In this document: positions 10,076 through 34,579 of the stretch, piece after piece
Position numbering within the stretch: the first letter of the stretch is position 1
Layout: each line of letters starts with the position of its first letter
Origin: Burkholderia sp. Ac-20379
GTDB taxonomy: Bacteria; Pseudomonadota; Gammaproteobacteria; Burkholderiales; Burkholderiaceae
Length of the DNA stretch: 34,930 bases
Assembly (NCBI RefSeq): GCF_017104645.1
Contig: NZ_JAAGPF010000048.1
Span: forward strand, 1 to 34,930
Reading direction: 5' to 3'
Notes under the pieces: model-generated
The model's database searches: none
Seen by the model: the letters and a program-made list of their open reading frames with translations, nothing else
What the model was told of the DNA's origin: nothing
Translations under genes and position numbers: made by a program

Positions 10076-10122
10076 GCGGGCGGGCCGGAGGCGAAAAACG
10101 ACGGGTCGGAAGCCGTGCAGGC

Positions 10123-10202
10123 GTACAGGGTTCGGCACCTGCACAGCGATTCGGCGTGTCCGACAAGTGTACATGTATCTGTACAGGGTGTTTGCCTACA
10201 TT
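10123..10202. promoter_or_regulatory. MocR operator region with GTACAGGGT direct repeats
   Basis: GTACAGGGT occurs at 10123-10131 and again at 10181-10189. The second copy lies next to paired TGTACA boxes at 10168-10173 and 10180-10185. A possible -10 box, TACATT (10197-10202), follows, with no good -35. This fits an activator binding just upstream of, and over, the -35 position of the rightward operon, as known for MocR proteins. That this MocR binds here is an inference from position. Confidence 0.55.
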
Positions 10203-10256
10203 CGAACCATGCGCCGCCGGCCGTTCCGGCGGTGCGGTTCTCTCACAGGCACCCGC

Positions 10257-11666: not shown

Positions 11667-11667
11667 C

Positions 11668-12942: not shown

Positions 12943-12989
12943 AGCGCGCCGCCTTTCTCCGACCATCGCATCGACAACAGGACAACCCC

Positions 12990-14608: not shown

Positions 14609-14641
14609 ATAATAGTCAGTTGATATTTAAATATCAACTGA
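14609..14641 (-). promoter_or_regulatory. H-NS-like gene promoter overlapped by a 26-bp perfect palindrome
   Basis: On the minus strand, TTGATA (14637-14632) and TATTAT (14614-14609) are 17 bases apart, a good sigma70 promoter reading into the H-NS-like gene. A perfect 26-base palindrome (14616-14641, centred on TTTAAA, arms TCAGTTGATATTT) covers its -35 box and spacer. It also lies 13 bases before the TetR start codon. This is a typical TetR operator position, giving repression of both the neighbour and the regulator itself. Confidence 0.65.
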
Positions 14642-15972: not shown

Positions 15973-16851
15973 TCAGGCCGCCTTGCGCACCAGGTCGCGC
16001 AGCTCGGCCGGAAACAGCATGTCGCGCGCGATCGAATCGTCGCGCCGCAGCAAGTCGGCCGCCGCCGGCACGCCGAAGAAATCCAGGAACAGCGGCGATT
16101 GCAGGATCAGCATGTCGAAGCCCGGCAACACCGCCTTGCCCTGCTTGATCGCGGCCTGCAGCAGCGGCGTGGGCTGATTCTTCATCAGGATGTCGCACAC
16201 CTGCGCCCCCGCGTCGATCCGCTCGGCCGGCACCGGCAGCGGATCGGCGGCCTTCAGCCCGAGCGGCGACGCGTTGATCACCAGCTCGTACCCGGCCGGA
16301 TCGTTGCTGTCCTGCACCGTCACCGCCACGCCGTACTGCCGGCTCAGCGATGCCGCCAGGTCCCGCGCCTTCGCCGTGTCGGGATCGTACAGGCCGATGC
16401 GCGGCACGCCGCCCTCGACGAGCGCCGCGGCGATCGCGCTGGCCGCGCCGCCCGCGCCCACCAGGAACGTCGATTTGCCCTGATACGGCATGGCGTAGCG
16501 ATCCATCGACTTGACGAAGCCCAGCCCGTCGAACAGCTCGCCCTCGAGTTCGCCGTTGGCGTTGCGGCGGATCGCATTGACCGCGTTGGCCACCGTCGCG
16601 CCCTTCGACTTGCGCTCGACAATGCCGGCCGCGATCGACTTGTGCGGAATCGACAGCACCATGCCGCGTGTGGTGTCCGAACGGAACAGCGCGCGCACCG
16701 TCGCCTCGAGATGCTCGGGCGCCACCTGCAACGGCACCATCACCGCGTCGATCTCGCACAGCGGGAAAATCTGGTTGAAAATCTCCGGCGTGCGAACCTG
16801 TTCGATCGGGTCCGCCACCATGAAGAACACGCCTGTCTTGCCCGTAATCAT
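15973..16851 (-). CDS. Shikimate dehydrogenase family protein
   Basis: This 292-residue protein has the AroE fold. The catalytic pair is present: Lys71 in SIPHKS and Asp108 in LFDGLGF. Asn92 keeps the spacing of E. coli AroE residues Lys65/Asn86/Asp102. The NAD(P) motif is GAGGAA (132-137). The substrate-binding N-terminus lacks the SxS-type shikimate contacts (it reads ADPIEQVRTPEIFN), so the substrate is probably not shikimate. AGGAGG lies upstream of the ATG. It is the last gene of the leftward operon, 91 bases after the proline-racemase-like gene, and is followed by the terminator. It probably oxidises or reduces a hydroxy or keto intermediate of the same pathway. Confidence 0.8.
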   Translation of the reverse strand: MITGKTGVFFMVADPIEQVRTPEIFNQIFPLCEIDAVMVPLQVAPEHLEATVRALFRSDTTRGMVLSIPHKSIAAGIVERKSKGATVANAVNAIRRNANGELEGELFDGLGFVKSMDRYAMPYQGKSTFLVGAGGAASAIAAALVEGGVPRIGLYDPDTAKARDLAASLSRQYGVAVTVQDSNDPAGYELVINASPLGLKAADPLPVPAERIDAGAQVCDILMKNQPTPLLQAAIKQGKAVLPGFDMLILQSPLFLDFFGVPAAADLLRRDDSIARDMLFPAELRDLVRKAA

Positions 16852-16906
16852 CCATCCTCCTGAATTTCGTCGTCCTGAATATTGGGACGTGTTTCGCTCG
16901 AGTCGA

Positions 16907-16931
16907 GGCGGGCCGCGCCCAGCGGCCCGCC
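16907..16931 (-). other. Intercistronic 10-bp hairpin
   Basis: GGCGGGCCGC (16907-16916) and GCGGCCCGCC (16922-16931) pair perfectly around a 5-base loop, 11 bases after the stop of the proline-racemase-like gene. Without a U tract it probably stabilises the upstream mRNA or causes partial termination before the last gene. Confidence 0.5.
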
Positions 16932-16942
16932 TGCCCCGCGCG

Positions 16943-17971
16943 TTACTTCGGGAACCCTTCGCCCCAGGTGTCGCTGAGCATGAAGCCCGCGGCCAGCGGA
17001 TCGTCGGGATCCACGCCGATCTGCTCGACGCTGTAGATCCAGGCGCGCCCGGTGATGCGCGGCAGCACGGCTTCCTTGCCGCCGAGTTCCGTGCGGCCCA
17101 GCAGCTCGACGCCGAACTCGCTGCCGATGGTGGAGCGCGACGTGAGCTTGCCGCCTACCTCCACCTTGCCGCGCGCGGCCAGCGTGGCCAGATTCGCCGA
17201 GCTGCCGGTGCCGCACGGCGAGCGGTCGATACGGCCCGGCGGCAGCGTCGTGCAGGTCTGGTATTCGGTATCGCTCAGGCGGTTGCGGAACATCACGTAG
17301 GCGAGCTGATTGATTTCCGGATACAGCGGGTGCTGGATGCGGATCTGCTCGTTGATGACCTCGCGCAGCTTCACGCCGAGATCGGCCAGCCGCCGTGCGT
17401 TCTCGGGCGCGATCGTCAGGCCCACCTGGTCGACGTCGACCAGCGCGTAGTACACGCCGCCGAACGCCACGTCCACGCGGATCGTGCCGAATTCAGCGGT
17501 GTCGATCGGCAGATCGAGGTGCTCGACGAAGGCCGGCACCATGTCGAGCGAGACGCCGACGCAGCGGCCGTCGTAACAGGTGGCGCGCGCGGTCACCAGC
17601 CCGGCCGGCGTGTCGAGCACGACCGTGGTGAGCGGTTCCTGCATCGGCACGATGCCCATTTCGAGCAGCGCCGTGACCACGCAGATCGAATTGCTGCCCG
17701 ACATCGGATGCGCCTTGTCGGATTGCAGCACGATGAAGCCGGCGTGCGCCTCGGGGCGCGTGGGCGGCAACAGCAGGTTGACCGACATCTGCAGGCAGCC
17801 GCGCGGCTCCAGCACGACGAGCTTGCGCAGGCTGTCGTCCACCTCGTTGATGTGGTTCATCTTGTCGAGCATGGTTTCGCCGGGGATGTTCACGACGCCG
17901 CCCGTGATCACCTTGCCGATTTCGCCCTCGCAATGCACGCCGACCAGTTGCAATGTCTTTTTCCAGCGCAT
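16943..17971 (-). CDS. Proline racemase family protein with Ser/Cys active site
   Basis: This 342-residue enzyme belongs to the proline racemase superfamily (proline racemase, 4-hydroxyproline 2-epimerase, trans-3-hydroxyproline dehydratase). These use two residues on opposite faces of the substrate. Here the first position is Ser91 in HPMSGSNS, where racemases have Cys. The second is Cys253 in DRSPCGTGSSAN. The Ser/Cys combination argues against plain proline racemase and leaves a hydroxyproline-like epimerase or another cyclic amino acid as options. It lies directly downstream of a D-amino-acid oxidase-like gene, matching the epimerase-then-oxidase logic of hydroxyproline degradation. AGAGAG lies seven bases before the ATG. 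Confidence 0.85.
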   Translation of the reverse strand: MRWKKTLQLVGVHCEGEIGKVITGGVVNIPGETMLDKMNHINEVDDSLRKLVVLEPRGCLQMSVNLLLPPTRPEAHAGFIVLQSDKAHPMSGSNSICVVTALLEMGIVPMQEPLTTVVLDTPAGLVTARATCYDGRCVGVSLDMVPAFVEHLDLPIDTAEFGTIRVDVAFGGVYYALVDVDQVGLTIAPENARRLADLGVKLREVINEQIRIQHPLYPEINQLAYVMFRNRLSDTEYQTCTTLPPGRIDRSPCGTGSSANLATLAARGKVEVGGKLTSRSTIGSEFGVELLGRTELGGKEAVLPRITGRAWIYSVEQIGVDPDDPLAAGFMLSDTWGEGFPK

Positions 17972-18017
17972 GACTCACTCTCTTTGAATTGCGCGCCTCG
18001 CGGCGCTCGATGGTTCG

Positions 18018-18036
18018 GGGCGCGCCGGGCGCGCCC
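18018..18036 (-). other. Intercistronic hairpin between oxidase and racemase genes
   Basis: GGGCGCG (18018-18024) pairs with CGCGCCC (18030-18036) around a 5-base loop, in the 90-base gap between the oxidase stop and the racemase start. It is a likely RNA stability or attenuation element, with no U tract. Confidence 0.4.
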
Positions 18037-18061
18037 ATCCAGTTCTACAGCCGCTCGTGCC

Positions 18062-19354
18062 TCAGAAGCGGTAGGCGCTGAACGGCGCCAGGTTCGTTTG
18101 CGGCGTGACGCCGCGCGCCAGTTCGGCGATCAGGCGGCCGGTGGTGGCGCCGAGCGTCAGGCCGAGCTGGCCGTGGCCGATCGCCATCAGCACGTTCGGC
18201 AGCCGGCGCGAGCGGTCGATGATCGGCTTCGTATCGGGCAGGAACGGCCGGTAGCCCACGCCGAATTCGTGACGCTCGGTGCGCAGTTGCGGCAGCACGC
18301 GGCGCGCCTTGTCGAGGATGATCTGCGCGCGCCGGAAATTCGGCTCGGCGCCGCGCGCGGCGAATTCGATCGTGCCGCCGATCTGCAGGCCGCGGCGCAT
18401 CGGCGTGAAGCAGAAGCCGCCGTCGCCGTAGATGACGGAATGACGAAACTCGACATCCGATTCCGGCAGCAGCACCTGGTAGCCGGCCACGCCTTCGAGC
18501 GGCACGTCGATGCCCAGCTGCGGGAAGAACTGCCGCGCGCCCGCGCCGGCCGCCACCACCAGTTGCGCGGCGGCGATCCGCTCGCCGTTAGCCAGCGTCA
18601 CGCCGGTGGCGCGCCCCGCGTCTTCCTCGATGCGCTTGACGGCGCCGCGGATGCGGCGCCCGCCCTGCTGCACGAAGCTCTCCGTCAGCGCCGCGATGAA
18701 GCGCTCGGTATCGCTGACGAACCGCCATTGCGGCAGCAGGATGCCGTGCGAGAAGCGCCCGGCCAGCACCGGCTCGAGATCGCCGATCTCGGCCGCGTTC
18801 AGCACCTGCGACTGGAAGCCGAGCGATTCGCGCAGCACGTTGTGCGGCCGTTCGTGCTCGATGCCGGCCGGGCTGTCGAATACCTGCATGACGGGGCGCT
18901 GCACGAGCAGCGCGTCGTCGTCGCAGGCGGCCAGCAGCGTGGCGTAATCGGCGAACACCTGCTGCGTGAGCGTGGCCATCGCCTGCGCGATGTCGTGCAC
19001 GCGCGAATGCCGCGCGCAGGCCATGAAGCGCAGCAGCCACGGCACGATGCCGGGCAGCGCGCTCGGGCGCAGCGCGAGCGGGCCGGTCTGGTCGAGCAGC
19101 CAGCCCGGCACCTTCATCAGCAGGCCCGGTTTGGACAACGGAATGATCTCGCCCACCGAGATCTGGCCGCAACTCCATTTGGCCGTGCTGTCGCCCGGTG
19201 CGGCCGGGTCGATCAGCGTGACGTCGAAGCCGCTGCGCTGCAGGTACAGCGCGCAGCAGGTGCCGACGATGCCGCCGCCGACGACAACGGCGGGCTCGCG
19301 CGTCGCGGCTGCCGCCGCCGGTTCGGAAATGCGCTCGTGAGGTACGGAGTTCAT
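18062..19354 (-). CDS. FAD-dependent D-amino acid oxidase/dehydrogenase (DadA-like)
   Basis: This 430-residue protein belongs to the DAO family. A short Ala-rich lead precedes the FAD-binding motif VVVGGGIVGTCCALYL (from about residue 23). The middle has the DadA-like KWSCGQISVGEI segment and the C-terminus has the flavin-contacting GHGQLGLTLGATTGRL. It resembles the small subunit of D-amino acid dehydrogenase and the D-hydroxyproline dehydrogenase type (LhpB-like), which convert a D-amino acid to an imine. It is the ninth gene of the operon, after the ABC transporter and before the racemase-like gene, so the pair can turn an L-isomer into an oxidisable D-isomer. The start at 19354 has no obvious ribosome site. 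Confidence 0.85.
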   Translation of the reverse strand: MNSVPHERISEPAAAAATREPAVVVGGGIVGTCCALYLQRSGFDVTLIDPAAPGDSTAKWSCGQISVGEIIPLSKPGLLMKVPGWLLDQTGPLALRPSALPGIVPWLLRFMACARHSRVHDIAQAMATLTQQVFADYATLLAACDDDALLVQRPVMQVFDSPAGIEHERPHNVLRESLGFQSQVLNAAEIGDLEPVLAGRFSHGILLPQWRFVSDTERFIAALTESFVQQGGRRIRGAVKRIEEDAGRATGVTLANGERIAAAQLVVAAGAGARQFFPQLGIDVPLEGVAGYQVLLPESDVEFRHSVIYGDGGFCFTPMRRGLQIGGTIEFAARGAEPNFRRAQIILDKARRVLPQLRTERHEFGVGYRPFLPDTKPIIDRSRRLPNVLMAIGHGQLGLTLGATTGRLIAELARGVTPQTNLAPFSAYRF

Positions 19355-19403
19355 CGTGAGGAAAGTTCGGTCTGCAAGGGAATCGGGGCGCGGCGCGCCG
19401 GGT

Positions 19404-20069
19404 TCAATAGGCGAAGCGCCGCAGGAAACGGCTTTCGATCAGGCCCACCGCGCGCGTCAACGGGAAGGCCACCACGAAATAGATGATGCCCACCGTGGTC
19501 AGGAATTCCAGCGGCCGCGCCGTGGCGTTCGAGATGCTCTGCCCCACGTACATCAGGTCCGCCACGCCCACCGACGAAATCAGCGCGCTCTCCTTGAACA
19601 GGCTGATGACGTTCGACAGCAGCGGCGGAATCGCGCGCAGCAGCGCCTGCGGGAAGATCACATGAACGATCTTGACCTGATGCGTGAGGCTCAGCGCGAT
19701 GCAGGCGTCGTGCTGCTCCGACGAGATGGACTTCAGCGCGCCGCGGAACGTCTCGCTGGTGATCGCCGCCATGTAGGCCGTCAGCGAAATCACCACCGAC
19801 AGATACGGCGGAATCGGCAACCGGAACACCACCGGGAAGCAGAAGAACACCCAGAACAACTGGATCAGCAGCGGCGTGCCGCGAAAGAACTCCACGTACA
19901 GCGTGGTCAGCACCTTGATCGCGCGCGACGGCGCGAGGCGCAACAGGCTCAGGCCGAAACCGAGCAGGCTGCCGAGCAGCGCGCAGCCGCCGGTGAACGC
20001 CACGGTCAGGCCGAGCCCCTTGAGCAGCACGAGCCAGTAAGCCGGCACCACGGAAAAGTCGATACTCAT
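19404..20069 (-). CDS. Amino-acid-type ABC transporter permease
   Basis: This 221-residue permease of the His/Glu/Gln/Arg (HisM/GlnP) family has about five membrane helices, starting with WLVLLKGLGLTVAFTGGCAL. FFRGTPLLIQLFW (about 61-73) is the family signature. The ATPase-contacting EAA loop, DACIALSLTHQVKIVHVIFP, lies at about 121-140. It pairs with the second permease 10 bases upstream to make a heterodimeric channel. AGGAG lies seven bases before its ATG. Its place within a catabolic operon implies a dedicated importer for a polar amino-acid-like substrate. Confidence 0.9.
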   Translation of the reverse strand: MSIDFSVVPAYWLVLLKGLGLTVAFTGGCALLGSLLGFGLSLLRLAPSRAIKVLTTLYVEFFRGTPLLIQLFWVFFCFPVVFRLPIPPYLSVVISLTAYMAAITSETFRGALKSISSEQHDACIALSLTHQVKIVHVIFPQALLRAIPPLLSNVISLFKESALISSVGVADLMYVGQSISNATARPLEFLTTVGIIYFVVAFPLTRAVGLIESRFLRRFAY

Positions 20070-20079
20070 GATGCGCTCC

Positions 20080-20751
20080 TCAACGCTGCATGGCCGCGTC
20101 CTGCCGGCGCTCGATGATATGAACCAGCCGCGAGATCGGCAGCGACAGGGCGAAGTAGATCAGCGCCACCAGCGAGTAGGTCTCGAGCGGACGATAGGCT
20201 TCCACCGCCAGGCTCTTGCCCACGTACATCAGATCCGCCACCGCCACGATCGCCACCAGCGCGCTCTGCTGCAGCGTGCCGATGCCGTTGGTCATCAGCA
20301 CCGGCAGCGCGCTGCGCAGCGCCTGCGGCAGCACCACGTACAGCGTGCGCTGCCACGGCTTGAGGCCGAGCGCGATGCACGCGTCGAGATGCTCCTTCGG
20401 CACCGCCTGCACGCCGGCCCGGTAGGCCTCGGCGTTGAACGCCGTCAGGTTCAGGCCGAGCGCCAGCACGCCCATCGTGATCGGATCGATGAACACGTCG
20501 ACCATCATCGGGATGCAGTAGAAGAACCAGAGAATCTGCAACAGCGCCGGCGTGCAGCGGAAGAACTCGATGAACAACTGCGCGGGCACCCGCACGATCG
20601 CCCACCGGCTCATCACCACGAGGCACAGCAGGAAGCCCAGCACCAGCCCCATCGCGTTGGCGGCCAGCGCCAGCTCGACCGTCACGCGCAGGCCGCCGAG
20701 CAGCGCGCCCGCGCTGCCGTGCAGAAAACTGAAATCGAATTGATAGCCCAT
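20080..20751 (-). CDS. Amino-acid-type ABC transporter permease
   Basis: This 223-residue paralogue of the next permease belongs to the same HisM/GlnP family, with about five predicted helices. The signature is FFRCTPALLQILWFFY (about 63-78). The EAA loop is DACIALGLKPWQRTLYVVLP. GAGG lies eight bases before the ATG, and the gene starts 10 bases after the ATPase stop, so the three transporter genes are translationally close. The two permeases are distinct enough to form a heterodimer in the inner membrane. Confidence 0.9.
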   Translation of the reverse strand: MGYQFDFSFLHGSAGALLGGLRVTVELALAANAMGLVLGFLLCLVVMSRWAIVRVPAQLFIEFFRCTPALLQILWFFYCIPMMVDVFIDPITMGVLALGLNLTAFNAEAYRAGVQAVPKEHLDACIALGLKPWQRTLYVVLPQALRSALPVLMTNGIGTLQQSALVAIVAVADLMYVGKSLAVEAYRPLETYSLVALIYFALSLPISRLVHIIERRQDAAMQR

Positions 20752-20761
20752 CTCGCGATCC

Positions 20762-21595
20762 TCAGTCCAGGTGCAGCACCTTGGTCAGGAATTCGCGCGT
20801 GCGCGATTCCTTCGGGTTCTTGAACATCTCGGCCGGCGCGCCCTGCTCGACCACCTTGCCGCTCGCGCAGAACACCACGCGGGTGGCGATGTCGCGCGCG
20901 AAGTGCATGTCGTGCGTGACGATGATCATCGCCATCTTCTGCTCGGCCAGTTGCAGCATGACGTTCTGCACCTCGACCACCATTTCCGGATCGAGCGCCG
21001 AGGTCACTTCGTCGAACAGCATCAGCTTCGGCTCGAGCATCAGCGCGCGGGCGATCGCCACGCGCTGCTTCTGGCCGCCCGAGAGCTGGCTCGGATAGGC
21101 GTTCAGCTTGCTTTCGAGGCCGAGCCGCGCGAGGTAGCGGCGCGCGCGCTCGGTGGCCTCGGCCTTCGAGAGGCCGCCCACCTTGACCGGCGCGAGGATC
21201 AGATTGCTCAGCACCGACAGGTGCGGAAACAGCGTGTAGTGCTGGAACACCATGCCGATCTGCTTCTGCAGCTTCGCGTCGATCCGTTTCGAGGCGCGCG
21301 CCTCGTTGCCCTTGATATAGGGCTTGCCCTGAAACGCGATCTCGCCGCTCTGGATGCCCTCCAGCCCCATCATCACGCGCAGCAGCGAGCTCTTGCCGCT
21401 GCCGCTCGGGCCGATCACGACGAGCCGGTCGTCGGCGCGCATGTCGAGATTCATGCGATCCATCACGACGAGATGCTCGCCGTAGGATTTGGTGACGTCG
21501 CGCAGCTGCACGAAATCCGCCGCCGGCTGGGGCTCGCTCGCACCTGGCTGGGCCGGTTCCGCCGCGCGCGGCGACTGTGTCAGAGATACCAACAT
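20762..21595 (-). CDS. Amino-acid-type ABC transporter ATPase
   Basis: This 277-residue ATPase of the GlnQ/HisP type has Walker A GPSGSGKSS (62-70), Q-loop Gln118, signature LSGGQKQR (171-178), Walker B LMLFDE (191-196) and switch His228 in VTHDMHFA. A 28-residue Ala/Pro-rich lead precedes the conserved domain. The start at 21595 was chosen because GGGAGG lies nine bases upstream; an ATG at 21604 directly abuts that ribosome site and is less likely. It energises the two downstream permeases together with the upstream binding protein. Confidence 0.9.
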   Translation of the reverse strand: MLVSLTQSPRAAEPAQPGASEPQPAADFVQLRDVTKSYGEHLVVMDRMNLDMRADDRLVVIGPSGSGKSSLLRVMMGLEGIQSGEIAFQGKPYIKGNEARASKRIDAKLQKQIGMVFQHYTLFPHLSVLSNLILAPVKVGGLSKAEATERARRYLARLGLESKLNAYPSQLSGGQKQRVAIARALMLEPKLMLFDEVTSALDPEMVVEVQNVMLQLAEQKMAMIIVTHDMHFARDIATRVVFCASGKVVEQGAPAEMFKNPKESRTREFLTKVLHLD

Positions 21596-21691
21596 GAGAT
21601 ACATCCTCCCGCTAAGCGCAACGCTGGCGCCTGTGACTGTGCTCAACAACCGGAAACCGGCGCGGCAAGCCGCCGCCGTTCAGAACCCATC

Positions 21692-21726
21692 CCGGGCGCG
21701 GCGGCCGCCAAGCCGCCCTTGCCCGG
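21692..21726 (-). other. Hairpin between binding protein and ATPase genes
   Basis: CCGGGC (21692-21697) pairs with GCCCGG (21721-21726), with inner GGCGG/CCGCC pairing. The 137-base gap is the longest inside the operon. Hairpins at this point are common in transporter operons, where they keep binding-protein mRNA more abundant than membrane components; that role is inferred here. Confidence 0.5.
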
Positions 21727-21732
21727 ACGCGT

Positions 21733-22566
21733 TTACTTCGTGGCCGCCAGCGTTTCCTTGATGGCGGCGTCCACCCGGCCGTTGACCGTGCCGGACTTGA
21801 TCTGCTGCGCGATGAACTGGTTCAGCACCGCCACGTCGGCGGCCGGGGTGTCCTTGCGCACGCCGAACGCGATGCCCTGCTGCGCCAGCGGCGGGTTCGA
21901 CTTGTAGATTTCGGCCCAGTCGCCGTGCGAGCGCGCGAGCATCAGGTTGCTCATGTTGTCGTCGGCCAGCACGTCGGCGCGCTTGGACATCAGCGCGAGG
22001 CGCGTTTCGTCGAAGCCCGGCAGGCGCATGATGGTGGCCTGCTTGATCGTGCCGGTCACCACGCGGTCGGCCGCCGAGCCCGACATCACCGCCACCTGCA
22101 CGCCCGGCTTGTCGATCGCGGCGAGCGATGCGACCGGCTTGGCCAGCTTCGGGTTGTGCTTGTTGTAGGCGAACGTGACGCTGTAATCCACCACCGGCTG
22201 CGAGAACGAGATCGCCTTCTCGCGCTCCGGCGTGTCGTTCAGCGACACCGAGATGTCCCACTTGTCCGATTGCAGGCCCGCGACGATGTTGTCCCAGGTG
22301 GTGTCGACGAACTGCACCTTGACCTTCAGCACCTTCTCGCCGAAATCCTTGCAGAGGCCCGGAAACACGCCGCCGTAGGCGCCGCTCATCGGATCCTTCA
22401 TGGTGTACGGGGCCGACAGCGCCACGCCGCAGCGCAGCACGCCGGCCTTGCGCACGGCCTGCCAGTTCGACGCGTCCTGCGCCTGCACCGGCGCGGCGGC
22501 CATCGCGGCGCCGAAGGTCGCCGCGCATACCATGGCGCGGCCGAGAATGTGAGTCATCCGAAACAT
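21733..22566 (-). CDS. Amino-acid-type ABC transporter substrate-binding protein
   Basis: This 277-residue periplasmic binding protein is of SBP family 3 (polar amino acids). The signal peptide covers residues 1-29, with a likely signal peptidase I site after PVQA. The mature part shows VRKAGVLRCGVALSAPYTMK, then GLCKDFGEKVL, and SDKWDISVSLNDTPEREKAI, the usual ligand-pocket landmarks. AGAGG lies six bases before the ATG at 22566; an ATG three codons later is also possible. It lies between the RidA-like gene and the ATPase gene and defines the substrate of the import system, most likely an amino acid or amino-acid-like compound. Confidence 0.9.
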   Translation of the reverse strand: MFRMTHILGRAMVCAATFGAAMAAAPVQAQDASNWQAVRKAGVLRCGVALSAPYTMKDPMSGAYGGVFPGLCKDFGEKVLKVKVQFVDTTWDNIVAGLQSDKWDISVSLNDTPEREKAISFSQPVVDYSVTFAYNKHNPKLAKPVASLAAIDKPGVQVAVMSGSAADRVVTGTIKQATIMRLPGFDETRLALMSKRADVLADDNMSNLMLARSHGDWAEIYKSNPPLAQQGIAFGVRKDTPAADVAVLNQFIAQQIKSGTVNGRVDAAIKETLAATK

Positions 22567-22660
22567 GTTCAACCTCTTTGATCTGGGGTTGGCCCGGGCC
22601 CGCCAAGCCATTCGATTGTTCGAACGCGGCACGCCGCCCGGCGCGCCGCGCATGCCGCCC

Positions 22661-23131
22661 TTAGTTCAGTTCGAAAATACCGTCGAGCTCGACCGCCACG
22701 CCGCGCGGCAGCGAATTGCAGCCCACCGCGGCGCGCGTGTGCCGGCCGGCATCGCCCAGCACGGCGATCACGAGATCGGACGCGCCGTTGATCACCTTCG
22801 GATGCTCGGTGAATTCCGGCGCGGCGTTGACGAAGCCGCCGAGCCGCACGCAGCCCGCCACCTTCGACCAATCGCCGCCGACCGCCGCATCGACCTGCGC
22901 CAGCACGTTGACGGCGCAGATCCGCGCGGCCTCCTGCCCCTGTTCGAGCGTCAGGTCCTGCCCGACCTTGCCGGTAAACCGGTCGACGCCGCCGACCACC
23001 GGCACCTGGCCCGACACGTAGAGCAGGTTGCCCACCCGCTTGGCGGGCAGGAAGTTGGCGCCGGGCTTGACGGCCGTCTCCGGCGCCTCGATGCCCAGCT
23101 TGCCCAGGCGGGCTTTCAGCGATTCACTCAT
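22661..23131 (-). CDS. RidA/YjgF family protein
   Basis: This 156-residue member of the Rid superfamily is longer than classic RidA (about 128). It shows LYVSGQVPVV (about 37-46), FTGKVGQDLTLEQGQ and the C-terminal RAAVGCNSLPRGVAVELD, where Arg133 is in the position of the imine-binding arginine. RidA proteins hydrolyse reactive enamines and imines to keto acids. In this operon it would handle the imine made by the DadA-like oxidase. The ATG at 23131 has GGAG eight bases upstream; a GTG at 23140 is in frame but too close to that site. Confidence 0.85.
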   Translation of the reverse strand: MSESLKARLGKLGIEAPETAVKPGANFLPAKRVGNLLYVSGQVPVVGGVDRFTGKVGQDLTLEQGQEAARICAVNVLAQVDAAVGGDWSKVAGCVRLGGFVNAAPEFTEHPKVINGASDLVIAVLGDAGRHTRAAVGCNSLPRGVAVELDGIFELN

Positions 23132-23147
23132 GTTGTCCACTCCAGGT

Positions 23148-23981
23148 TCATTTCAGGGGGCGCACGTGCGGCCCGCATCGCTCGATCGACACCCTCACCG
23201 TTTCTTCCGGCGGGCGCTGCCACCAATCGAGCTCGGAGAAGATCTCCAGTTCGAATGGTCCGGTGTACTGGATATCGTCCAGCAGCCGCTTGATGGCCGG
23301 GATGTCGATCACGCCGTCGCCCACCATGCCGCGGTCGCGCAGGTTGCGGGTGGGCACGAGCCAGTCGCAGTAGTGAAACGTGATGATGCGATCCGGGCCG
23401 GCGCGGCGAAGCTCCGCCTCGAAGTCCGGATCCCACCAGCAGTGATAGACGTCGGGCACGAGGCCGGCCCCTTCGCCGAGCGCGTCGCACAGATCGTTCG
23501 CCACCCTGATCGAATTCAGCACGCTGCGATCGCCGGCGTACATCGGGTGCAGCGGCTCGAGGCCGAGCTTCACGCCGGTTTGCCGCGCATGCGGCAGCAG
23601 CTCGAACAGCGCGTCGCGCACGCGGGCGCGCTGGCCCGCGATGTCCTTGCTGTCGGGCGGCATGCCGCCCACCACCATCATCAGGCAGGCTGCGCCGATC
23701 TCGGCCGCCGCGTCGAGCAGCCGGCGGTTGGTGTCGATGGCGTCGCGCATGCTGCCGGCCACGGCCGCGTTGAACCATTCGCTGGTGCACAGCGACGGCA
23801 CCCACATGCCGAGGTCGCGAATATGCTTGGCCGTCTTCGCCACCCCGTAGTCTTCGAGGAAATGGCGCCACACGGCGATACCGTCGACGCCCTGGCGCTT
23901 GTAGCCCTCCAGGGCCTCGGGCATCGACCAGGCCGGCGTCGTGATCTGGTTGATCGCGAATCGGGAGAGATCGAATTCCAC
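23148..23981 (-). CDS. Sugar phosphate isomerase/epimerase-like TIM barrel protein
   Basis: This 277-residue protein belongs to the AP-endonuclease-2/xylose-isomerase-like TIM barrel superfamily, which includes hydroxypyruvate isomerase, inosose dehydratase and various epimerases. Metal-ligand-like positions are seen in LGLEPLHPMYAG (Glu near 151), GLVPDVYHCWWDPDF (Asp/His near 180), ITFHYCDW (His near 204) and FELEIFSE (Glu near 251). The start is a GTG at 23981 with AGGAG seven bases upstream, and the gene begins 10 bases after the hydantoinase B stop. The reaction is unknown; isomerisation or dehydration of a ring-opened intermediate would fit. Confidence 0.8.
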   Translation of the reverse strand: MEFDLSRFAINQITTPAWSMPEALEGYKRQGVDGIAVWRHFLEDYGVAKTAKHIRDLGMWVPSLCTSEWFNAAVAGSMRDAIDTNRRLLDAAAEIGAACLMMVVGGMPPDSKDIAGQRARVRDALFELLPHARQTGVKLGLEPLHPMYAGDRSVLNSIRVANDLCDALGEGAGLVPDVYHCWWDPDFEAELRRAGPDRIITFHYCDWLVPTRNLRDRGMVGDGVIDIPAIKRLLDDIQYTGPFELEIFSELDWWQRPPEETVRVSIERCGPHVRPLK

Positions 23982-23991
23982 GTCGGGCTCC

Positions 23992-25713
23992 TCAGGCCGC
24001 CGCGCCGCGAGCGGCCGCCGACTTCGCCACGTCGATGGCCTCGCCGTCGAACACCACGCCGTGGAAGCGCTGCGCGTACTCGCGCGTGATCTTGCCGTTG
24101 GCCAGATCGGCCGCGATCCGATCCAGCGAACGCGCCGCCGGATCGCCGTAGCCGCCGCCGCCCGCCTGCTCGTGGCGGATGATCGCGCCGCGCGTCAGGG
24201 TGCGCGTGAACTTGCTCGGCAGCGGCGCGAGGCCGTCGTCGGAGCGCAGGTAGTTGGCCGAGCACGCGCCGGACTGGCCGCCGAACAGGCCGTACGGCGC
24301 ATGCGCCGCGCGGTCCGAGCGGATCTGCGCCACCACCTCGTCGGCCTCGATGCGGTATTCGCGCACCAGGCCCAGGCCGCCGCGATGCTCGCCCGCGCCG
24401 CCCGAATCGGCTGCGAAGCCGTACGCTTCCATCACGATCGGATAGCGCGCCTCGAGCGTCTCGATCGGCATGTTCGACATGTTCTGCGACGGGTTGGTCA
24501 CGCCTTCCACGCCGTCCTTGTTGTAGCGCGCGCCCCAGGCGCCGTTGATCATGTCGACCAGGATGAACGGCTCGCTTGCGCCCTTCGCGTAACCGCTCAG
24601 CGCGATCACGGTGTTGCCGCCCTCGCCGGCCGCCATCACCTTGGTGGGCGCGATCTGCGCCAGCGCGCCGAGCACGCAGTCCACCGTGCGGTAGCCGGTC
24701 AGCGCGCGCGCCGCCACCGGGGCCGGCATGCGCGGGTTCAGGATCGAGCCTTCCGGCGCGGTGATCTCGATGCAGCGGTACACGCCCGCGTTGTTCGGCA
24801 CGTCGGCGTCGAGCGCGCAGCGCACGCTCAGGTAGGTGGCCGATTTGACGAACGACAGCGTGGAGTTGATCGCGCCGCGCACCTGCGGCGACGAGCCGGC
24901 GAAATCCACGCTGACCTTGTCGCCCGCCACCGTGATCGCGCAGCGGATCGGAATCGCGTCGTCGGAGAAGCCGTCGTTGTCGATGTAGTCGGTGAACGTG
25001 TAGGTGCCGTCCGGCCAGGCCGAGATCGCCTTGCGCGTGAGGCGCTCGCCGTAGTCGAGCAGTTCGTCGAAGTAGTCGCGCAGCTCGCTTTCGCCGTAGC
25101 GCTTGATCAGGCGCTGCAGTTCGCGTTCGCCGATGTTGCAGGTCGCGAGCTGGGCGTCGAGGTCGCCGAGCACCAGATCGGGCAGCCGCACGTTCTTGCG
25201 GATGATGTTGATCAGCGTCTCGTTCGGCTCGCCGCGCGTGTACAGCTTGGTCGGCGGAATCCGGATGCCTTCCTGGAAGATCTCCGTCGAATCGGCCGCG
25301 TTCGAGCCCGGCACGCGCCCGCCCATGTCGCAATGGTGGGCGATCACCACCGCGAAGCCCTGCAGGCGGGCATCGTGGAAGATCGGCTTGAACATGAAGA
25401 TGTCCGGCAGGTGCATCCCGCCTTCGTACGGATCGTTCAGGATGATCACGTCGCCCGGCTCGAGCTTGCCGGCGTACTTCTTCGTGATGACGTCCACGGC
25501 GTCGGGCACCGCGCCCAGATGCAGCGCGACGGTCTTGGCCTGGGCCAGGATGCGGCCGTCGGCGTCGCACATCGTCACCGAGTAATCGAGCACGTCGCGG
25601 ATGATCGGCGAGCGCGCGGTGCGCATCACGGCGAAGGCCATGTCGTCGACGATCGTGTCGAGTGCGTTCTTGACGACCGCGAAGGTAATCGGGTCAACGT
25701 TGCGTTGGTTCAT
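23992..25713 (-). CDS. hyuB: Hydantoinase B/oxoprolinase family protein
   Basis: This 573-residue protein matches the HyuB half of ATP-dependent hydantoinases and 5-oxoprolinases. Landmarks are VDPITFAVVKNALDTIVDDM at the N-terminus, ILNDPYEGGMHLPD (about 142-155), VIAHHCDMGGRVPGS (His-rich metal-binding segment, about 174-188), and late EHRGGLGLVREYRIE and HEQAGGGGYGDP. HyuB works with HyuA to open a five-membered lactam or hydantoin ring at the cost of ATP. It lies 16 bases after hyuA, with GGAG before its ATG. The substrate (5-oxoproline, hydantoin, N-methylhydantoin or other) cannot be read from the sequence. Confidence 0.9.
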   Translation of the reverse strand: MNQRNVDPITFAVVKNALDTIVDDMAFAVMRTARSPIIRDVLDYSVTMCDADGRILAQAKTVALHLGAVPDAVDVITKKYAGKLEPGDVIILNDPYEGGMHLPDIFMFKPIFHDARLQGFAVVIAHHCDMGGRVPGSNAADSTEIFQEGIRIPPTKLYTRGEPNETLINIIRKNVRLPDLVLGDLDAQLATCNIGERELQRLIKRYGESELRDYFDELLDYGERLTRKAISAWPDGTYTFTDYIDNDGFSDDAIPIRCAITVAGDKVSVDFAGSSPQVRGAINSTLSFVKSATYLSVRCALDADVPNNAGVYRCIEITAPEGSILNPRMPAPVAARALTGYRTVDCVLGALAQIAPTKVMAAGEGGNTVIALSGYAKGASEPFILVDMINGAWGARYNKDGVEGVTNPSQNMSNMPIETLEARYPIVMEAYGFAADSGGAGEHRGGLGLVREYRIEADEVVAQIRSDRAAHAPYGLFGGQSGACSANYLRSDDGLAPLPSKFTRTLTRGAIIRHEQAGGGGYGDPAARSLDRIAADLANGKITREYAQRFHGVVFDGEAIDVAKSAAARGAAA

Positions 25714-25729
25714 GAGGACTCCAGTGAAT

Positions 25730-27811
25730 TCAAACGATTGAGGCGATCACGCTGCCGATCTTGTCCGTGGCGACGCGCCAGCCCGGCGGGATCACGATCG
25801 TCGTGTCGGAGCTTTCGAGGATCACGGGGCCGTCGATCGGCTGGTCGAGCGCGGCGCGCGGCACGATCGGCGTGTCGACCCAGCCCGTCTGGCGCGAGAA
25901 ATACACGTTGCGCCGGCTACGCTCAGCGGTGGCGCCCGCGGCGCGCGCGCTGCGGATGTCGTTGAAATCGAGCGTGCTGGTGGCCACGCCGCGCGCCAGC
26001 AGGCGCACGTTGGCGCATTCGATCGCGTCGTCCGACGCGTAGCCGTAGATCGCGGTGTAAGCGTCGCGGAAGGCCTGGCGCAGCGTGTCGCGCGCATGGG
26101 CGTCGAGCGTGTCGGGCAGGCGCACCGGAATTTCGTAATCCTGACCCTTGAAGCGCATGTCGAGATCGAACACGTACTGGATGCGGTCCGCCGTATAGCC
26201 TTCCTCGGCCAGCGCCTTGCGCGCGTCCTCGCGCATGCCGGCCACCACCGTGCCGAGCGCCTCGATGTCGAGCGCGTCGAGCAGGCTCAGCGACGGCTTC
26301 ACGAAATAGCGCTCCACCGCCCCGGCCAGCATGCCCATCGCCGTGAACACGCCCGGCGCGGCCGGGAACACCACGCGCTTCATGTCGAGCGCGCGCGCCA
26401 GATCGCAGGCGTGCACCGGGCCGGAGCCGCCGAACGCCACCAGCGTGAAGTCGCGCGGATCCACGCCGCGCTCCACCGTCACGGCCTTGATGGTGCGCGC
26501 CATGTTGACGTTGACCACCTCGCGAATCCCCACCGCCGCTTCCTCGACGCCGATGCCGAGCGGCGTGGCCAGCAGCGTGTCCACCGCCTCGCGCGCCGCC
26601 TTGATGTTCAGCTCCATCGTGCCGCCCGCGAGCTTCTGCGGCAGGAAGCCGAGAATCGCGTTCGCGTCGGTCACGGTCGGCTTCTCGCCGCCGATGCCGT
26701 AGCACACCGGCCCCGGGAACGCGCCGGCCGACACCGGGCCGACGTTGAGCAGGCCGCCCGCGTCGATCCAGGCGATCGAGCCCGCGCCGCTGCCCACTTC
26801 GGCCACGTCGATGGTCGGCACGCGCATCATGTAGCCGCCCGCCTTGATGAAACGGCTCGGCGTGGAGATGCCCGCGCGGAATTCGTATTCGTTGGTGCGC
26901 GCAAGCTGCCCTTCGTGGATCAGCGAGGCCGAGGCGGTCGTGCCACCCATGTCGAACACCACCAGTTCCTGCTCGCTGCACGCTTCGCCGAGCCGGCCCG
27001 CGCCCACCACGCCGGCCGAGCGGCCCGACGAGATGAAGAACACCGGCGTGTCCTGCGCGATGCGCGCGCTCGACAGGCCGCCGTTCGAATTGCTGACCAA
27101 GAGCGGCGCGCTGACGCCGATCCGCTTGAGGCCCGATTCGAGGCGTTGCAGATAGGTGCGCAGCGCCGGCAGCACGTACGCGTTGACCACCGTGGTGGAG
27201 GTGCGCTCGTATTCGCGCAGTTCCGGCAGCACCTGGATCGACGCGGTCACGCTGATCTCGGGGAATGCCTGCTGGAACGCATCGAGCGCGGCCTGTTCGT
27301 TCGCTCCGTTCTTGTACGAGTTGATGAAGCAGATGGCGACGGACTCCACGCCTTCCTGCTGGAAGAAACGGCCCGCTTCGAGCACCTGATCGACGGGCGT
27401 CGCGCGCAGCACGTCGCCCGAGGCCAGCACGCGCTCGTCGATCTCGACGCGGTAGCGGCGCTCGACCAGCGGCACCGGCTTGTCCCACGACAGATCGAAC
27501 ATCGTCGGCGTGCGCACGCGGCCGATTTCGAGCACGTCGCGGAAGCCCTTGGTGGTGATCAGGCCGCACTTCGCACCGACCTTCTGCAGCATCGTGTTCG
27601 AGCCGACCGTCGTGCCGTGCAGCACCTCGACCACGTCCGACGTCTTCATGCCGGCCTGTTCGAGAATCCGCTGCACGCCCGTCAGCACCGCTTCCTCCGG
27701 CGCCGCCGGCGTCGAGGAAACCTTCGTGAATGTCACGTAGCCCTTGTCGTCGAGCAGCACAAGGTCCGTGAAAGTACCGCCGATGTCGACTCCAATTCTC
27801 GCGCTTGCCAT
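25730..27811 (-). CDS. hyuA: Hydantoinase A/oxoprolinase family protein
   Basis: This 693-residue ATP-binding partner of HyuB has the ASKHA-type fold. The phosphate loop is GVDIGGTFTDLVL (about residues 7-19), then HGTTVGSNTML, and a second glycine-rich motif FDMGGTTASAS. The C-terminus carries DPRDFTLVAFGGSGPVHA (about 436-453). In FDMGGTTAxAS many relatives have Lys at x, while here it is Ser. It is the first gene of the eleven-gene leftward operon. The ATG at 27811 has GGGA upstream; longer upstream in-frame sequence lacks family features. A short hairpin, AGTTGC-3-GCAACT (27847-27861), lies in its leader. It is probably repressed by the FCD-type GntR protein through the operator at 28032-28052. 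Confidence 0.9.
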   Translation of the reverse strand: MASARIGVDIGGTFTDLVLLDDKGYVTFTKVSSTPAAPEEAVLTGVQRILEQAGMKTSDVVEVLHGTTVGSNTMLQKVGAKCGLITTKGFRDVLEIGRVRTPTMFDLSWDKPVPLVERRYRVEIDERVLASGDVLRATPVDQVLEAGRFFQQEGVESVAICFINSYKNGANEQAALDAFQQAFPEISVTASIQVLPELREYERTSTTVVNAYVLPALRTYLQRLESGLKRIGVSAPLLVSNSNGGLSSARIAQDTPVFFISSGRSAGVVGAGRLGEACSEQELVVFDMGGTTASASLIHEGQLARTNEYEFRAGISTPSRFIKAGGYMMRVPTIDVAEVGSGAGSIAWIDAGGLLNVGPVSAGAFPGPVCYGIGGEKPTVTDANAILGFLPQKLAGGTMELNIKAAREAVDTLLATPLGIGVEEAAVGIREVVNVNMARTIKAVTVERGVDPRDFTLVAFGGSGPVHACDLARALDMKRVVFPAAPGVFTAMGMLAGAVERYFVKPSLSLLDALDIEALGTVVAGMREDARKALAEEGYTADRIQYVFDLDMRFKGQDYEIPVRLPDTLDAHARDTLRQAFRDAYTAIYGYASDDAIECANVRLLARGVATSTLDFNDIRSARAAGATAERSRRNVYFSRQTGWVDTPIVPRAALDQPIDGPVILESSDTTIVIPPGWRVATDKIGSVIASIV

Positions 27812-27956
27812 ATCGATTCCCGATCGTTCTCGAGCCGTCCCGCTGAAGTTGCGTGGCAACTGGCTCGGGTTACCCAATTGAAGATGTCGCCGGCTCCGGG
27901 CGGGCGACACAGCCGCCCGCCCCGCCCGGAACCCAATGGAATTGATGATTGGCGAC

Positions 27957-28083
27957 AATGATTCGAGGCAAGGCTGGAACCGCTTTTCACTCGAATCCGC
28001 TACAGCGCCGCATCAACTTCCATGGCGCTCATTGTCGATCAAATGCCGACAAAGTCAACGTGGAAAAATAATGATTCGAGGCA
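27957..28083. repeat. 14-bp direct repeat flanking the hyuA operator
   Basis: AATGATTCGAGGCA occurs exactly at 27957-27970 and 28070-28083, 113 bases apart start to start, both followed soon by GG. The GntR operator and hyuA promoter lie between the copies. They may be sites for a second regulator or the trace of a small duplication. Confidence 0.55.
28031..28058 (-). promoter_or_regulatory. hyuA operon promoter with embedded GntR operator
   Basis: On the minus strand, TTGACT (28058-28053) and GACAAT (28036-28031) are 16 bases apart and read into hyuA. The near-perfect palindrome TTGTCG-N9-CGACAA (28032-28052) fills the spacer and overlaps the -10 box, so a bound repressor would exclude RNA polymerase. 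The same motif recurs before the tautomerase and GntR genes. The rest of the 462-base stretch 27812-28273 holds the hyuA leader, the direct repeats and the tautomerase promoter, but no further gene. Confidence 0.7.
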
Positions 28084-28167: not shown

Positions 28168-28235
28168 TTGACGATCGGGTTCTGGAGTGCAAATATTTGT
28201 CGACACTAGATCGACTGTCGACCTAATGTCGATCA
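28168..28235 (+). promoter_or_regulatory. Tautomerase promoter with tandem GntR operators
   Basis: TTGACG (28168-28173) and AAATAT (28191-28196) are 17 bases apart. Two overlapping operator-like sites follow at once: TTGTCG-N9-CGACTG (28197-28217) and CTGTCG-N9-CGATCA (28215-28235). They share the spacing of the perfect copies at 28032 and 29412. They cover the predicted transcription start, consistent with repression by the nearby GntR protein. Confidence 0.65.
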
Positions 28236-28273: not shown

Positions 28274-28483
28274 ATGCCCGTTATTCATGTCCAGATGCTC
28301 GCCGGCCGCAGCCAAGCGCAGAAATCCGAACTGGCCGAGGTGCTGACGCGCGAAACCTCGCGCATCGCCCGCTGCCCCGAAGCCGATATCCAGATCGTGT
28401 TCGACGAGGTGCCGCGCGCGAGCTGGGCCGTGGGCGGCCGGCTCGTGGAAGGCCACGCCGCGGCGCCGCAAGGCGCGGCCTGA
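28274..28483 (+). CDS. 4-oxalocrotonate tautomerase family protein
   Basis: This 69-residue small tautomerase has Pro1 available after removal of Met (PVIHVQMLAGRS). Arg11 is conserved as in 4-oxalocrotonate tautomerase. The second arginine, Arg39, is replaced by Gln in DIQIVF, and Phe50 is Trp in ASWAVGG. The substrate therefore probably differs from 2-hydroxymuconate; a keto-enol shift of a pathway intermediate is plausible. AGGAA lies seven bases before the ATG at 28274. It is divergent from hyuA and shares its operator motif, which places it in the same regulon. Confidence 0.85.
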   Translation: MPVIHVQMLAGRSQAQKSELAEVLTRETSRIARCPEADIQIVFDEVPRASWAVGGRLVEGHAAAPQGAA

Positions 28484-28602: not shown

Positions 28603-29361
28603 CTACCGCGGCTTGCGGCCGACGCCGGCCGCCGAGTAGTTCACGGGGATCCGCGCGGTCAGGTTGCGATCGAGGAACTGCATGAAGCGCCCCTTGAACT
28701 GCACCGCGTGATGATGCGCGCACGCTTCGGCGCGATCGGCGTCGCCGGCCTCGATCGCCAGCACCATCTCGGTGTGATCGCTGGCCATCTCCTTGGCGCT
28801 GATGTTCGGATCGAGCCGCTCGAACTGGAAATGCAGATGCAGCATGCGCCGCCCTTCCTCCATCAGCCGCCGGTACAGGTCGGCGAAATACACGTTGCGC
28901 CCCGCACGGGCGATCGCCATGTGGAATTCGTAGTTCTGCTCGATGATGCCGAGGCTCTCGCCCGACTTGATGCCGGCCGCGGCCACCTTCTCGTAGGCGC
29001 GCTGCGCCGCGTGTATCGCGGCCAGGTCGGCGGCCGTGCGATGCTGCGCGGCGAGCCGCGTGGTCACGCGCTGCAACAGGTCGAGCGCGTCGAGGAATTC
29101 CGGCACGCGGCCGAAATCCATCGGCATCACCACGTTGCCGCGATTCGGCAGGATCGTCACGAGCCCTTCGGCCGACAGCCGTACCAGCGCCTCGCGCACC
29201 GGCGAGCGCGACACGTCGAAACGCTCGGCCAGCCCCTGCTCGTCGAGATGCGTGCCCGGTGCGAGCCGCATCGTCAGGATGTCGTTGCGCAAGCTCACGT
29301 ACAAACGTGCGGAGCCGGTTTCCTTGCCGGCCGGGACAGGCCCGGTCAGTGCTTTTTCCAT
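28603..29361 (-). CDS. GntR-family regulator, FCD type (candidate regulator of the hyu operon)
   Basis: This 252-residue FadR-subfamily GntR regulator has an N-terminal winged helix (about 18-85, with DEQGLAERFDVSRSPVREAL) and a C-terminal helical FCD domain. Metal-binding-type residues can be seen in EQNYEFHMAIA, SDHTEMV and HHHAVQF. FCD proteins usually bind carboxylic acids and repress catabolic operons. A perfect TTGTCG-N9-CGACAA operator lies 50 bases upstream of its start, and related sites lie in the tautomerase and hyuA promoters, so it very likely controls itself and both. AGGGAAGGG precedes the ATG at 29361. Confidence 0.9.
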   Translation of the reverse strand: MEKALTGPVPAGKETGSARLYVSLRNDILTMRLAPGTHLDEQGLAERFDVSRSPVREALVRLSAEGLVTILPNRGNVVMPMDFGRVPEFLDALDLLQRVTTRLAAQHRTAADLAAIHAAQRAYEKVAAAGIKSGESLGIIEQNYEFHMAIARAGRNVYFADLYRRLMEEGRRMLHLHFQFERLDPNISAKEMASDHTEMVLAIEAGDADRAEACAHHHAVQFKGRFMQFLDRNLTARIPVNYSAAGVGRKPR

Positions 29362-31659: not shown

Positions 31660-31792
31660 GTCTCTGGGTCTCCTGACCTTCGAGCGCGTTCGCGACGGCG
31701 CTGCGCATCCGCGTGCGGATCGCCTGCCCGGCCGGCCGGAACGGCCCCGAATGTCATCGCATGCCACGCACTCATCGACGACCAGGGCCACC

Positions 31793-34514: not shown

Positions 34515-34579
34515 CGCGAATCGTGAATCGACATCAATCGGTTGACGGAACGGCGCCGCCGCGAGGGCGGCGCCAACGT

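Follow-up and report, generated by a model that had tools for sequence, protein, structure and literature searches.

A window of 34,930 nucleotides from Burkholderia sp. Ac-20379 (contig NZ_JAAGPF010000048.1, here C464, in a 7.40-Mb genome of 826 contigs) carries a cluster of about 17 genes which, judged by its recurrence in other genomes, is a real conserved island. The gene content points to a hydroxyproline-like cyclic imino acid or lactam as the probable substrate, and we lean, with little more than even confidence, towards a single catabolic island, spanning approximately 8.6–29.4 kb, for a hydroxylated compound of this kind, distinct from the hydroxyproline route. By the cluster genes, the kin of the locus were Burkholderiaceae. 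A description of the cluster was not found in the open-licence literature of PubMed Central under the words searched.

The centre of the cluster is a run of eleven genes that extends along the minus strand between 27811 and 15973, each of whose products scored above the Pfam cut-off for its named family:
25730..27811, minus strand: hyuA, ATP-binding subunit of the hydantoinase/caprolactamase/oxoprolinase type (Hydantoinase_A, PF01968, PF05378; ATP motifs); an alternative, longer open reading frame starting with TTG reaches 27958
23992..25713, minus strand: hyuB, metal-site subunit (Hydantoinase_B, PF02538, 620 bits)
23148..23981, minus strand: TIM-barrel sugar-isomerase-like protein (TIM; AP_endonuc_2)
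22661..23140, minus strand: RidA family protein (YjgF/RidA, PF14588/PF01042)
21733..22653, minus strand: binding protein of a polar amino-acid ABC importer (sbp; SBP_bac_3, PF00497)
20762..21649, minus strand: ATPase of the importer (atp; ABC_tran, PF00005)
20080..20751, minus strand: permease of the importer (prm; BPD_transp_1, PF00528)
19404..20069, minus strand: permease of the importer (prm; BPD_transp_1, PF00528)
18062..19354, minus strand: DadA-like FAD oxidoreductase, kin to the oxidase of hydroxyproline clusters (DAO, PF01266)
16943..17971, minus strand: proline racemase superfamily protein with a Ser/Cys pair, 4-hydroxyproline-epimerase type (PF05544, 399 bits)
15973..16851, minus strand: oxidoreductase of the shikimate dehydrogenase fold (SDH-like; Shikimate_dh_N), not AroE

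An earlier note, made from the letters of the window alone, had named these eleven co-directional genes in this order, and all of them are present. With the hyuA ATG at 27811, successive genes are separated by 16, 10, 7, 7, 83, 10, 10, 49, 90 and 91 bases; the compact spacing that the note described (mostly gaps of 10–137 bases) therefore stands at 7–91 bases, while a gap of 137 was not reproduced with the starts used. Its bounds of 15973..28058 enclosed real genes but were too narrow, cutting off linked genes on both sides:
8672..10174, minus strand: MocR-like regulator with GntR and aminotransferase domains
10266..11666, plus strand: glycerate-2-kinase-type protein (glyK; DUF4147 and MOFRL, PF13660/PF05161)
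11638..12942, plus strand: enolase paralogue, designated Eno* (PF00113/PF03952); a 424-aa form starts at 11668
12990..14114, plus strand: OCD/mu-crystallin family enzyme (OCD; PF02423)
28274..28483, plus strand: 4-oxalocrotonate-tautomerase-like protein, divergent from hyuA (PF01361), which recurs beside type A clusters (defined below)
28603..29361, minus strand: GntR/FCD regulator (PF00392/PF07729), also recurrent

The first four of these occupy 8672–14114, and the OCD gene is convergent to the operon.

A pattern search for kin of the racemase gene in the named genome collection gave 83 matches, of which 65 were confirmed; they defined 64 loci, in each of which 13 gene families were scored by identity cut-offs. 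Loci with an SDH-like gene or a close HyuA were termed type A, and those with an aldehyde dehydrogenase (ALDH) and/or DHDPS gene type B; these families served as the sorting criteria, and the counts for the remaining families are independent of them. Fourteen loci were type A, 47 were type B, none was both, and three (L016, L069 and L070) were neither. In the type A loci (n = 14), the racemase gene was found in 14, the DadA-like and SDH-like genes in 13 each, hyuA in 12, hyuB and RidA in 11 each, the kinase, Eno* and OCD genes in 10 each, MocR in eight, TIM in seven, and ALDH and DHDPS in none; the SDH-like homologue of L063 (38%) falls below the cut-off. The type B loci (n = 47) carry the racemase and ALDH genes throughout, DHDPS in 43 and the DadA-like gene in 42, and at the cut-offs used none of the 47 has hyuA, hyuB, TIM, RidA, SDH-like, kinase, Eno*, OCD or MocR genes. 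Four type A loci are without Eno*: L010 and L014, whose stretches stop within 2.4 kb of the SDH-like gene; L062, which is apparently the same contig as G251:C29 (both have a length of 75964), genome G251 having Eno* on a different contig; and L063, a divergent alphaproteobacterial locus. The grouping of the genes as a unit, as previously claimed, thus recurs whole or partly in 14 loci.

Neither a DHDPS-type deaminase nor a ketoglutarate semialdehyde (KGSA)-type aldehyde dehydrogenase had a match in the window, and the absence of both rules out plain membership of a hydroxyproline cluster. The genome has a separate classical hydroxyproline cluster on contig C517, with the gene order sbp atp prm prm DHDPS dad ALDH rac gntR, and both cluster types are also held by other named strains, for example B. 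aenigmatica (L011 and L033). The claim that the standard hydroxyproline genes are missing and that this is not the known pathway was borne out, the deaminase and the aldehyde dehydrogenase being found in 0 of 14 type A loci versus 43 and 47 of the 47 type B loci. Compared with the hydroxyproline cluster as given in the main text of PMC4113996 (4HypE, c4Hyp oxidase, DHDPS-type deaminase and KGSA dehydrogenase), the present cluster has the same importer type, a Ser/Cys racemase-family enzyme, a DadA-like oxidase and a GntR regulator, whereas all 14 type A loci lack the deaminase and aldehyde dehydrogenase and the set has HyuAB, TIM, RidA, SDH-like, kinase, Eno* and OCD genes instead.

Co-inheritance was evaluated in a sample of 299 Burkholderiaceae genomes (own genome included), searched three times, with an Eno* cut-off of E <= 1e-120 chosen to exclude the housekeeping enolase. 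Eno* was detected in nine genomes and HyuA of at least 83% identity in eight, all of them with Eno*, leaving one genome with Eno* only and none with HyuA only (Fisher p 6e-15, a value that overstates independence since the genomes are related); two further genomes have HyuA at just 51–52%. The racemase (E <= 1e-130) was present in 24 of the 299, seven of which also have Eno* (p 3e-7). Close HyuA is rare in the sample of 398 genomes across the phylum, where a search at E <= 1e-170 gave one genome besides our own, at 51%. In Pantoea sp. Ap-967 (L030), fourteen genes follow each other in one direction (hyuA hyuB rid sbp atp prm prm dad rac sdh glyK eno ocd tim), and genome G251 has the co-directional run hyuA hyuB tim rid glyK eno ocd with an MFS-type gene.

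Parts of the set are also carried on plasmids. HyuA kin of at least 60% identity occurred in eight records among the matches listed (40 of 983 records), all from Rhizobium, Sinorhizobium or Agrobacterium; of these eight, seven regions were read (R. jaguaris, A. cucumeris, R. leguminosarum, S. fredii and Rhizobium spp. NXC24, CB3060 and CB3090), and hyuA, hyuB and TIM are adjacent in all seven. Eno* kin of at least 60% were found in nine of 1114 plasmid records, with kinase, Eno* and OCD together in all seven regions read out of the nine. A racemase-family gene, 59–64% identical to that of the window, lies near the core in four rhizobial plasmids (L087, L093, L095 and L104). Dihydroxy-acid-dehydratase-family genes accompany the set in A. 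cucumeris and L048, and six of the loci read contain a gene for a class II aldolase, which has kin elsewhere in our own genome (best 68%). The neighbourhood comparison that had been proposed as a check, with unrelated conservation as the adverse outcome, thus gave a divided answer: the genes do recur together, and parts of the set also stand alone.

Some related loci show further arrangements. Contig C122 of the same genome (L102) carries a GntR gene (71%), an SDR gene (72%), a binding protein (63%), a racemase-family gene (34%) and a branched-chain-type binding protein; an SDR gene and a comparable racemase-family gene adjoin the main cluster in other type A genomes. In the Paracoccus plasmids L094 and L105, TIM-HyuB-HyuA at 55–64% lie near a serine-kinase-like gene and a class III aminotransferase gene, as well as near an SDH-like gene and a full hydroxyproline set; as a guess, the kinase/phospho-lyase pair of these plasmids may replace the kinase and Eno*.

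The front end of the cluster closely resembles the hydroxyproline system. The racemase has the catalytic residues Ser (MSGSN) and Cys (SPCGTG), as in the aligned 4lb0, and its best solved relatives are 4q2h and 4lb0, the latter deposited as an A. vitis hydroxyproline epimerase with t4Hyp; a second racemase of L009 passes the NCBIfam cut-off for 4-hydroxyproline epimerase (494 vs 376 bits). PMC4113996 reports that enzymes of the Ser/Cys group epimerise 4-hydroxyproline and also act, promiscuously, on 3-hydroxyproline. Identity to the type B loci was 62–83% for the racemase and mostly 59–73% for the oxidase (33–37% in four loci), and the binding protein is more diverged than the permeases. At the 80% level, only three positions in the racemases and six in the DadA-like enzymes separate type A (n = 14, window included) from type B (n = 43). 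On the phylogenetic trees, a single clade (99/93) holds 13 of the 14 type A racemases and lies beside the type B racemases of Burkholderiaceae; for the DadA-like proteins, one clade (99) holds 12 of the 14 from type A. Because the type A racemases and oxidases branch within or beside the hydroxyproline-type ones, the front end (importer, racemase and oxidase) is, by these phylogenies, taken from a hydroxyproline system, perhaps more than once. The few diagnostic differences and the branching within classical enzymes support one part of the earlier note's proposal, in that a cyclic imino acid would be imported, epimerised and oxidised.

The HyuAB pair resembles the ATP-dependent lactam hydrolases (CapAB, in the account given by PMC8453981, and N-methylhydantoinase) in its two subunits, ATP motifs and CapB-type metal ligands. 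The ATP motifs DIGGTFTD, DMGGT and PGP of HyuA are intact, and HyuB keeps the residues aligned with CapB Asp41, His99, Asp102 and His124 (6yra B chain), four metal ligands which that account describes as essential in caprolactamase. It differs from CapAB in several respects: the best NCBIfam match of HyuA, caprolactamase alpha, reached 532 bits against a cut-off of 1000; hyuAB are linked to the TIM-barrel gene, which is adjacent in the window and seven plasmid regions and several kb off in some Burkholderiaceae; and the position of CapA Asp302, a CapA feature rather than one shown to define the family and placed here by motif spacing rather than by alignment to CapA, is Ser in 6/6 sequences of the HyuA subfamily, and Lys in four and Asp in one of five more distant sequences. 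HyuA has a Lys in FTKVSSTP, a stretch that may correspond to the region of CapA position 40; 5-oxoprolinases are without the Lys of CapA position 40 according to PMC8453981. With Ser in place of the CapA Asp302, lactam opening by HyuA can only be guessed from its family, and action on a five-membered lactam or hydantoin, which the earlier note gave as known for HyuAB, is at most putative here, although the ATP and metal sites are intact. Breakdown of 5-oxoproline (pyroglutamate) by HyuAB alone was rejected, as it leaves the racemase, oxidase, kinase and Eno* unexplained. For kinship to the agropinic-acid genes, also rejected, the evidence is indirect: HyuA of A. tumefaciens reached 39% at best among the matches listed (40 of 983 records).

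The most unusual member of the set is Eno*, which was compared in 120 sequences, that of the window included, among 1351 matches at E <= 1e-100. It scored above the TIGR01060 cut-off (362 vs 300 bits) and is 35% identical to the genome's own enolase. In yeast numbering, all 120 sequences have Ser39, Glu168, the three Mg ligands, Lys345, Arg374, Ser375 and Lys396, while Glu211 is replaced by Ser and His373 by Gly in every sequence, and His159 by Tyr in 113. Eno* has the fold, Mg site, base Lys and phosphate-binding residues of enolase (phosphopyruvate hydratase), and differs from it at Glu211 and His373, on the leaving-group side of the site. Eno* keeps the enolate-forming half, and other invariant residues have taken the place of the leaving-group half, a pattern more in keeping with a changed substrate than with decay. 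"Enolase" is probably the wrong label for Eno*, because two catalytic enolase residues are missing in all 120 sequences. A glycolytic role was rejected, given the genome's own enolase and the absence of these two residues from Eno*; an enolase of L028 grouped with Eno* in the first clustering has ordinary enolase motifs and hence is not Eno*. Fold searches with two structure models of modest confidence (mean pLDDT 70.5 and 66.0, from alignments of 15 and 7 rows) were consistent with the enolase and sugar-isomerase folds and added nothing further. One could hypothesise that the DUF4147 kinase phosphorylates a 2-hydroxy acid with an amino or other non-hydroxyl group at C3 and that Eno* expels this group to give a phosphoenol acid, a phosphorylation-elimination pair that would be new to biochemistry and the key step of an undescribed pathway; this proposal is tentative, and we doubt it more than we trust it.

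The remaining enzymes give less specific indications. The nearest solved relatives of TIM, 3ju2/3qc0 (SMc04130) and 7vpf, are all without stated function; TIM keeps invariant acidic and His residues, which could bind a metal. The kinase, whose nearest solved relatives are 1x3l and 2b8n, has DUF4147 plus MOFRL, the domains of class II glycerate 2-kinases, and its L009 homologue is under the glycerate 2-kinase equivalog cut-off (174 vs 550 bits). OCD is 88% identical to an L009 protein that passes NF004848 'tyramine oxidase subunit B', and its nearest solved relatives are SbnB (4m54, the best), alanine dehydrogenase and a pyrroline-2-carboxylate reductase. The SDH-like protein lies below the aroE equivalog cut-off (134 vs 200.2 bits), the nearest solved by sequence being 4k28. 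A gene annotated 'ThiF family adenylyltransferase' in the R. jaguaris plasmid L087 (11630–12421), 69% identical to an A. cucumeris 'shikimate dehydrogenase' and 54% to the SDH-like region of L063, is likely misannotated. Glyoxylate metabolism ends in the gcl-hyi-glxR-ttuD-pykF genes (glycerate kinase/pyruvate kinase). The same TIM-barrel isomerase family, a reductase, a DUF4147/MOFRL kinase and, in G123, a pyruvate kinase gene are found here; in contrast to that system, a non-canonical enolase follows the kinase, and HyuAB and OCD are added.

From these gene families, the state of their catalytic sites, their co-inheritance and the origin of the front end, we infer a substrate class, an order of steps and the individual reactions, as follows. 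The ABC importer of the front end would bring the compound in, the Ser/Cys racemase-family enzyme would invert C2 from L to D, and the DadA-like flavoenzyme would oxidise the D form to a cyclic imine, with RidA and the tautomerase assisting hydrolysis and tautomerisation of imine and enamine forms. HyuAB, of the core shared with rhizobia, would open a lactam ring with ATP, TIM would shift the carbonyl of a hydroxy-keto acid, and the SDH-like enzyme would reduce a keto acid to a 2-hydroxy acid with a C3 substituent. The glycerate-2-kinase-type enzyme may then phosphorylate O2, and Eno* may form the usual enolate and release a C3 substituent that is not a simple hydroxyl, the lost acid residues being compatible with an ammonium or something larger; the phosphoenol acid would yield a 2-oxo acid. 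OCD may reduce or oxidise an imine. A more specific scheme, in which the C3 oxygen of 3-hydroxy- or 3,4-dihydroxyproline is lost via the kinase and Eno* and OCD then gives a proline, seems improbable to us. Import, epimerisation, oxidation and a non-standard route were already part of the earlier pathway reading, which left out the kinase/Eno*/OCD/MocR set at 8.6–14.1 kb and the tautomerase, recurrent genes of the same window.

That both halves of the island serve one pathway is likely and not proven, because each half can occur alone. Several observations count against a single pathway. In G123 the core is accompanied by SDR and GntR genes, and OCD is followed by a pyruvate kinase gene; no racemase was found genome-wide at E <= 1e-130, and the stretches read show no DadA-like, SDH-like or amino-acid importer gene. 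The 45 kb read in A. cucumeris include the core and give no match to the racemase family or to DadA-like proteins. HyuAB-TIM occurs in R. leguminosarum and S. fredii beside SDH-like, tautomerase and class II aldolase genes and another FAD oxidoreductase; these two show no racemase-family match and, in the stretches read, no kinase/Eno*/OCD. Conversely, the stretches read in R. tumorigenes and Shinella contain kinase/Eno*/OCD without HyuAB, and in G181, which also carries kinase/Eno*/OCD, HyuA was not found at E <= 1e-180. The racemase and oxidase of L048 and the oxidase of L062 fall outside the type A clades, the front end of L048 seemingly having been recruited apart from the others. The Ser at the CapA Asp302 position and the coverage of Eno*, 120 sequences being only part of the 1351 matches, also weigh on the preferred reading. 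The core or HyuAB-TIM without the racemase/DadA-like front end, and the separate recruitment in L048, would suit two independent neighbouring pathways under the same regulator type, one a hydroxyproline-like unit of importer, epimerase and oxidase, the other a HyuAB-TIM-RidA-kinase-Eno*-OCD route for another compound. We regard this as unlikely, though deserving of serious attention: hyuA, hyuB, TIM, RidA, importer, oxidase and racemase genes are joined in one run of the window with gaps of 7–91 bases, a largely similar run exists in Pantoea L030, and the core is paired with a racemase-family gene in the four rhizobial plasmids too.

A variant route for 4- or 3-hydroxyproline itself, that is, a redundant cluster with a different lower half, would explain why the racemase and oxidase are almost identical to type B at the diagnostic positions, why a hydroxyproline epimerase is among the closest solved relatives of the racemase and why the second racemase of L009 exceeds the 4-hydroxyproline epimerase cut-off. 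We give it little credence, since the classical cluster is already present on C517, both types coexist in B. aenigmatica L011 and L033, and the pathway laid out in PMC4113996 offers no step for HyuAB, TIM, kinase or Eno*, the words hydantoinase, oxoprolinase, enolase, glycerate and shikimate being absent from its main text. Equally doubtful in our estimation is an opine- or Amadori-type lactam pathway, in which HyuAB would open an N-substituted pyroglutamate, as in the case of agropinic acid, the DadA-like enzyme would cleave a secondary amine, OCD would be an opine-type dehydrogenase like SbnB, and the kinase, Eno* and dehydratase would handle the sugar-acid half. In its favour, SbnB is the best solved relative of OCD, dihydroxy-acid-dehydratase and MFS genes occur in some clusters, and hairy-root and tumour isolates are among the hosts; however, a ring imino acid is the type of compound indicated by the racemase and oxidase, and HyuA of A. 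tumefaciens reached 39% at best among the 40 of 983 records listed, a comparison that did not take in the agropinic-acid genes themselves. A single island for a hydroxyproline-like compound therefore remains the reading that we prefer.

The control region was examined by promoter and terminator scans, which are consensus matching only, and by motif counts:
28058-28031, minus strand: promoter-like match, 9/12 (consensus scan)
15950-15929, minus strand: terminator-like 9-pair stem with a T tail after the SDH-like gene (consensus match only)
28197..28206, plus strand: candidate operator TTGTCGACAC (motif TGTCGAC/GTCGACA)

One promoter and one strong terminator had been proposed for the operon; one promoter-like and one terminator-like match do lie at its ends, but the same scan gave further promoter-like sites at 28.2 kb and weaker terminator-like sites within the operon. 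Upstream of hyuA, 15 of the 21 distinct stretches of 500 bases contain the motif TGTCGAC/GTCGACA, which shares first rank among 4694 7-mers; in the comparison set, 42 coding stretches from the same genes, 10 contain it. TGTCGAC/GTCGACA, a TTGTCGACAA-like site, is a candidate GntR site; as the loci share ancestry, this is a lead, not proof.

Other features of the window lie beside the island. A TetR-family gene (14655–15281) sits between OCD and the end of the operon, and a perfect 26-base palindrome (14616–14641) just ahead of it overlaps promoter-like sites; the gene probably encodes a self-regulating repressor. A branched-chain-type (Peripla_BP_6) binding protein gene occupies 30406–31596, and its kin are found in L152, L157, L017 and L018, near GntR or MocR genes, as well as on contig C122 of the same genome. 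A convergent pair of luciferase-like monooxygenase genes, with 44% likeness between them, is located at 31751–33145 and 33198–34583.

The cluster offers a testable gene set for a probably plant-linked nutrient in Burkholderiaceae and rhizobia, and shows a hydroxyproline front end re-used on another core. It also contains a member of a conserved database 'enolase' family, all examined sequences of which have substitutions at two catalytic residues. The enolase family is usually treated as uniform in function; enzyme function within it becomes an open and cheaply assayed question. If the proposed kinase-Eno* pair holds true, the 120 Eno* proteins examined, and perhaps most of the 1351 matches, many of them labelled enolase or phosphopyruvate hydratase, would not be glycolytic enzymes.

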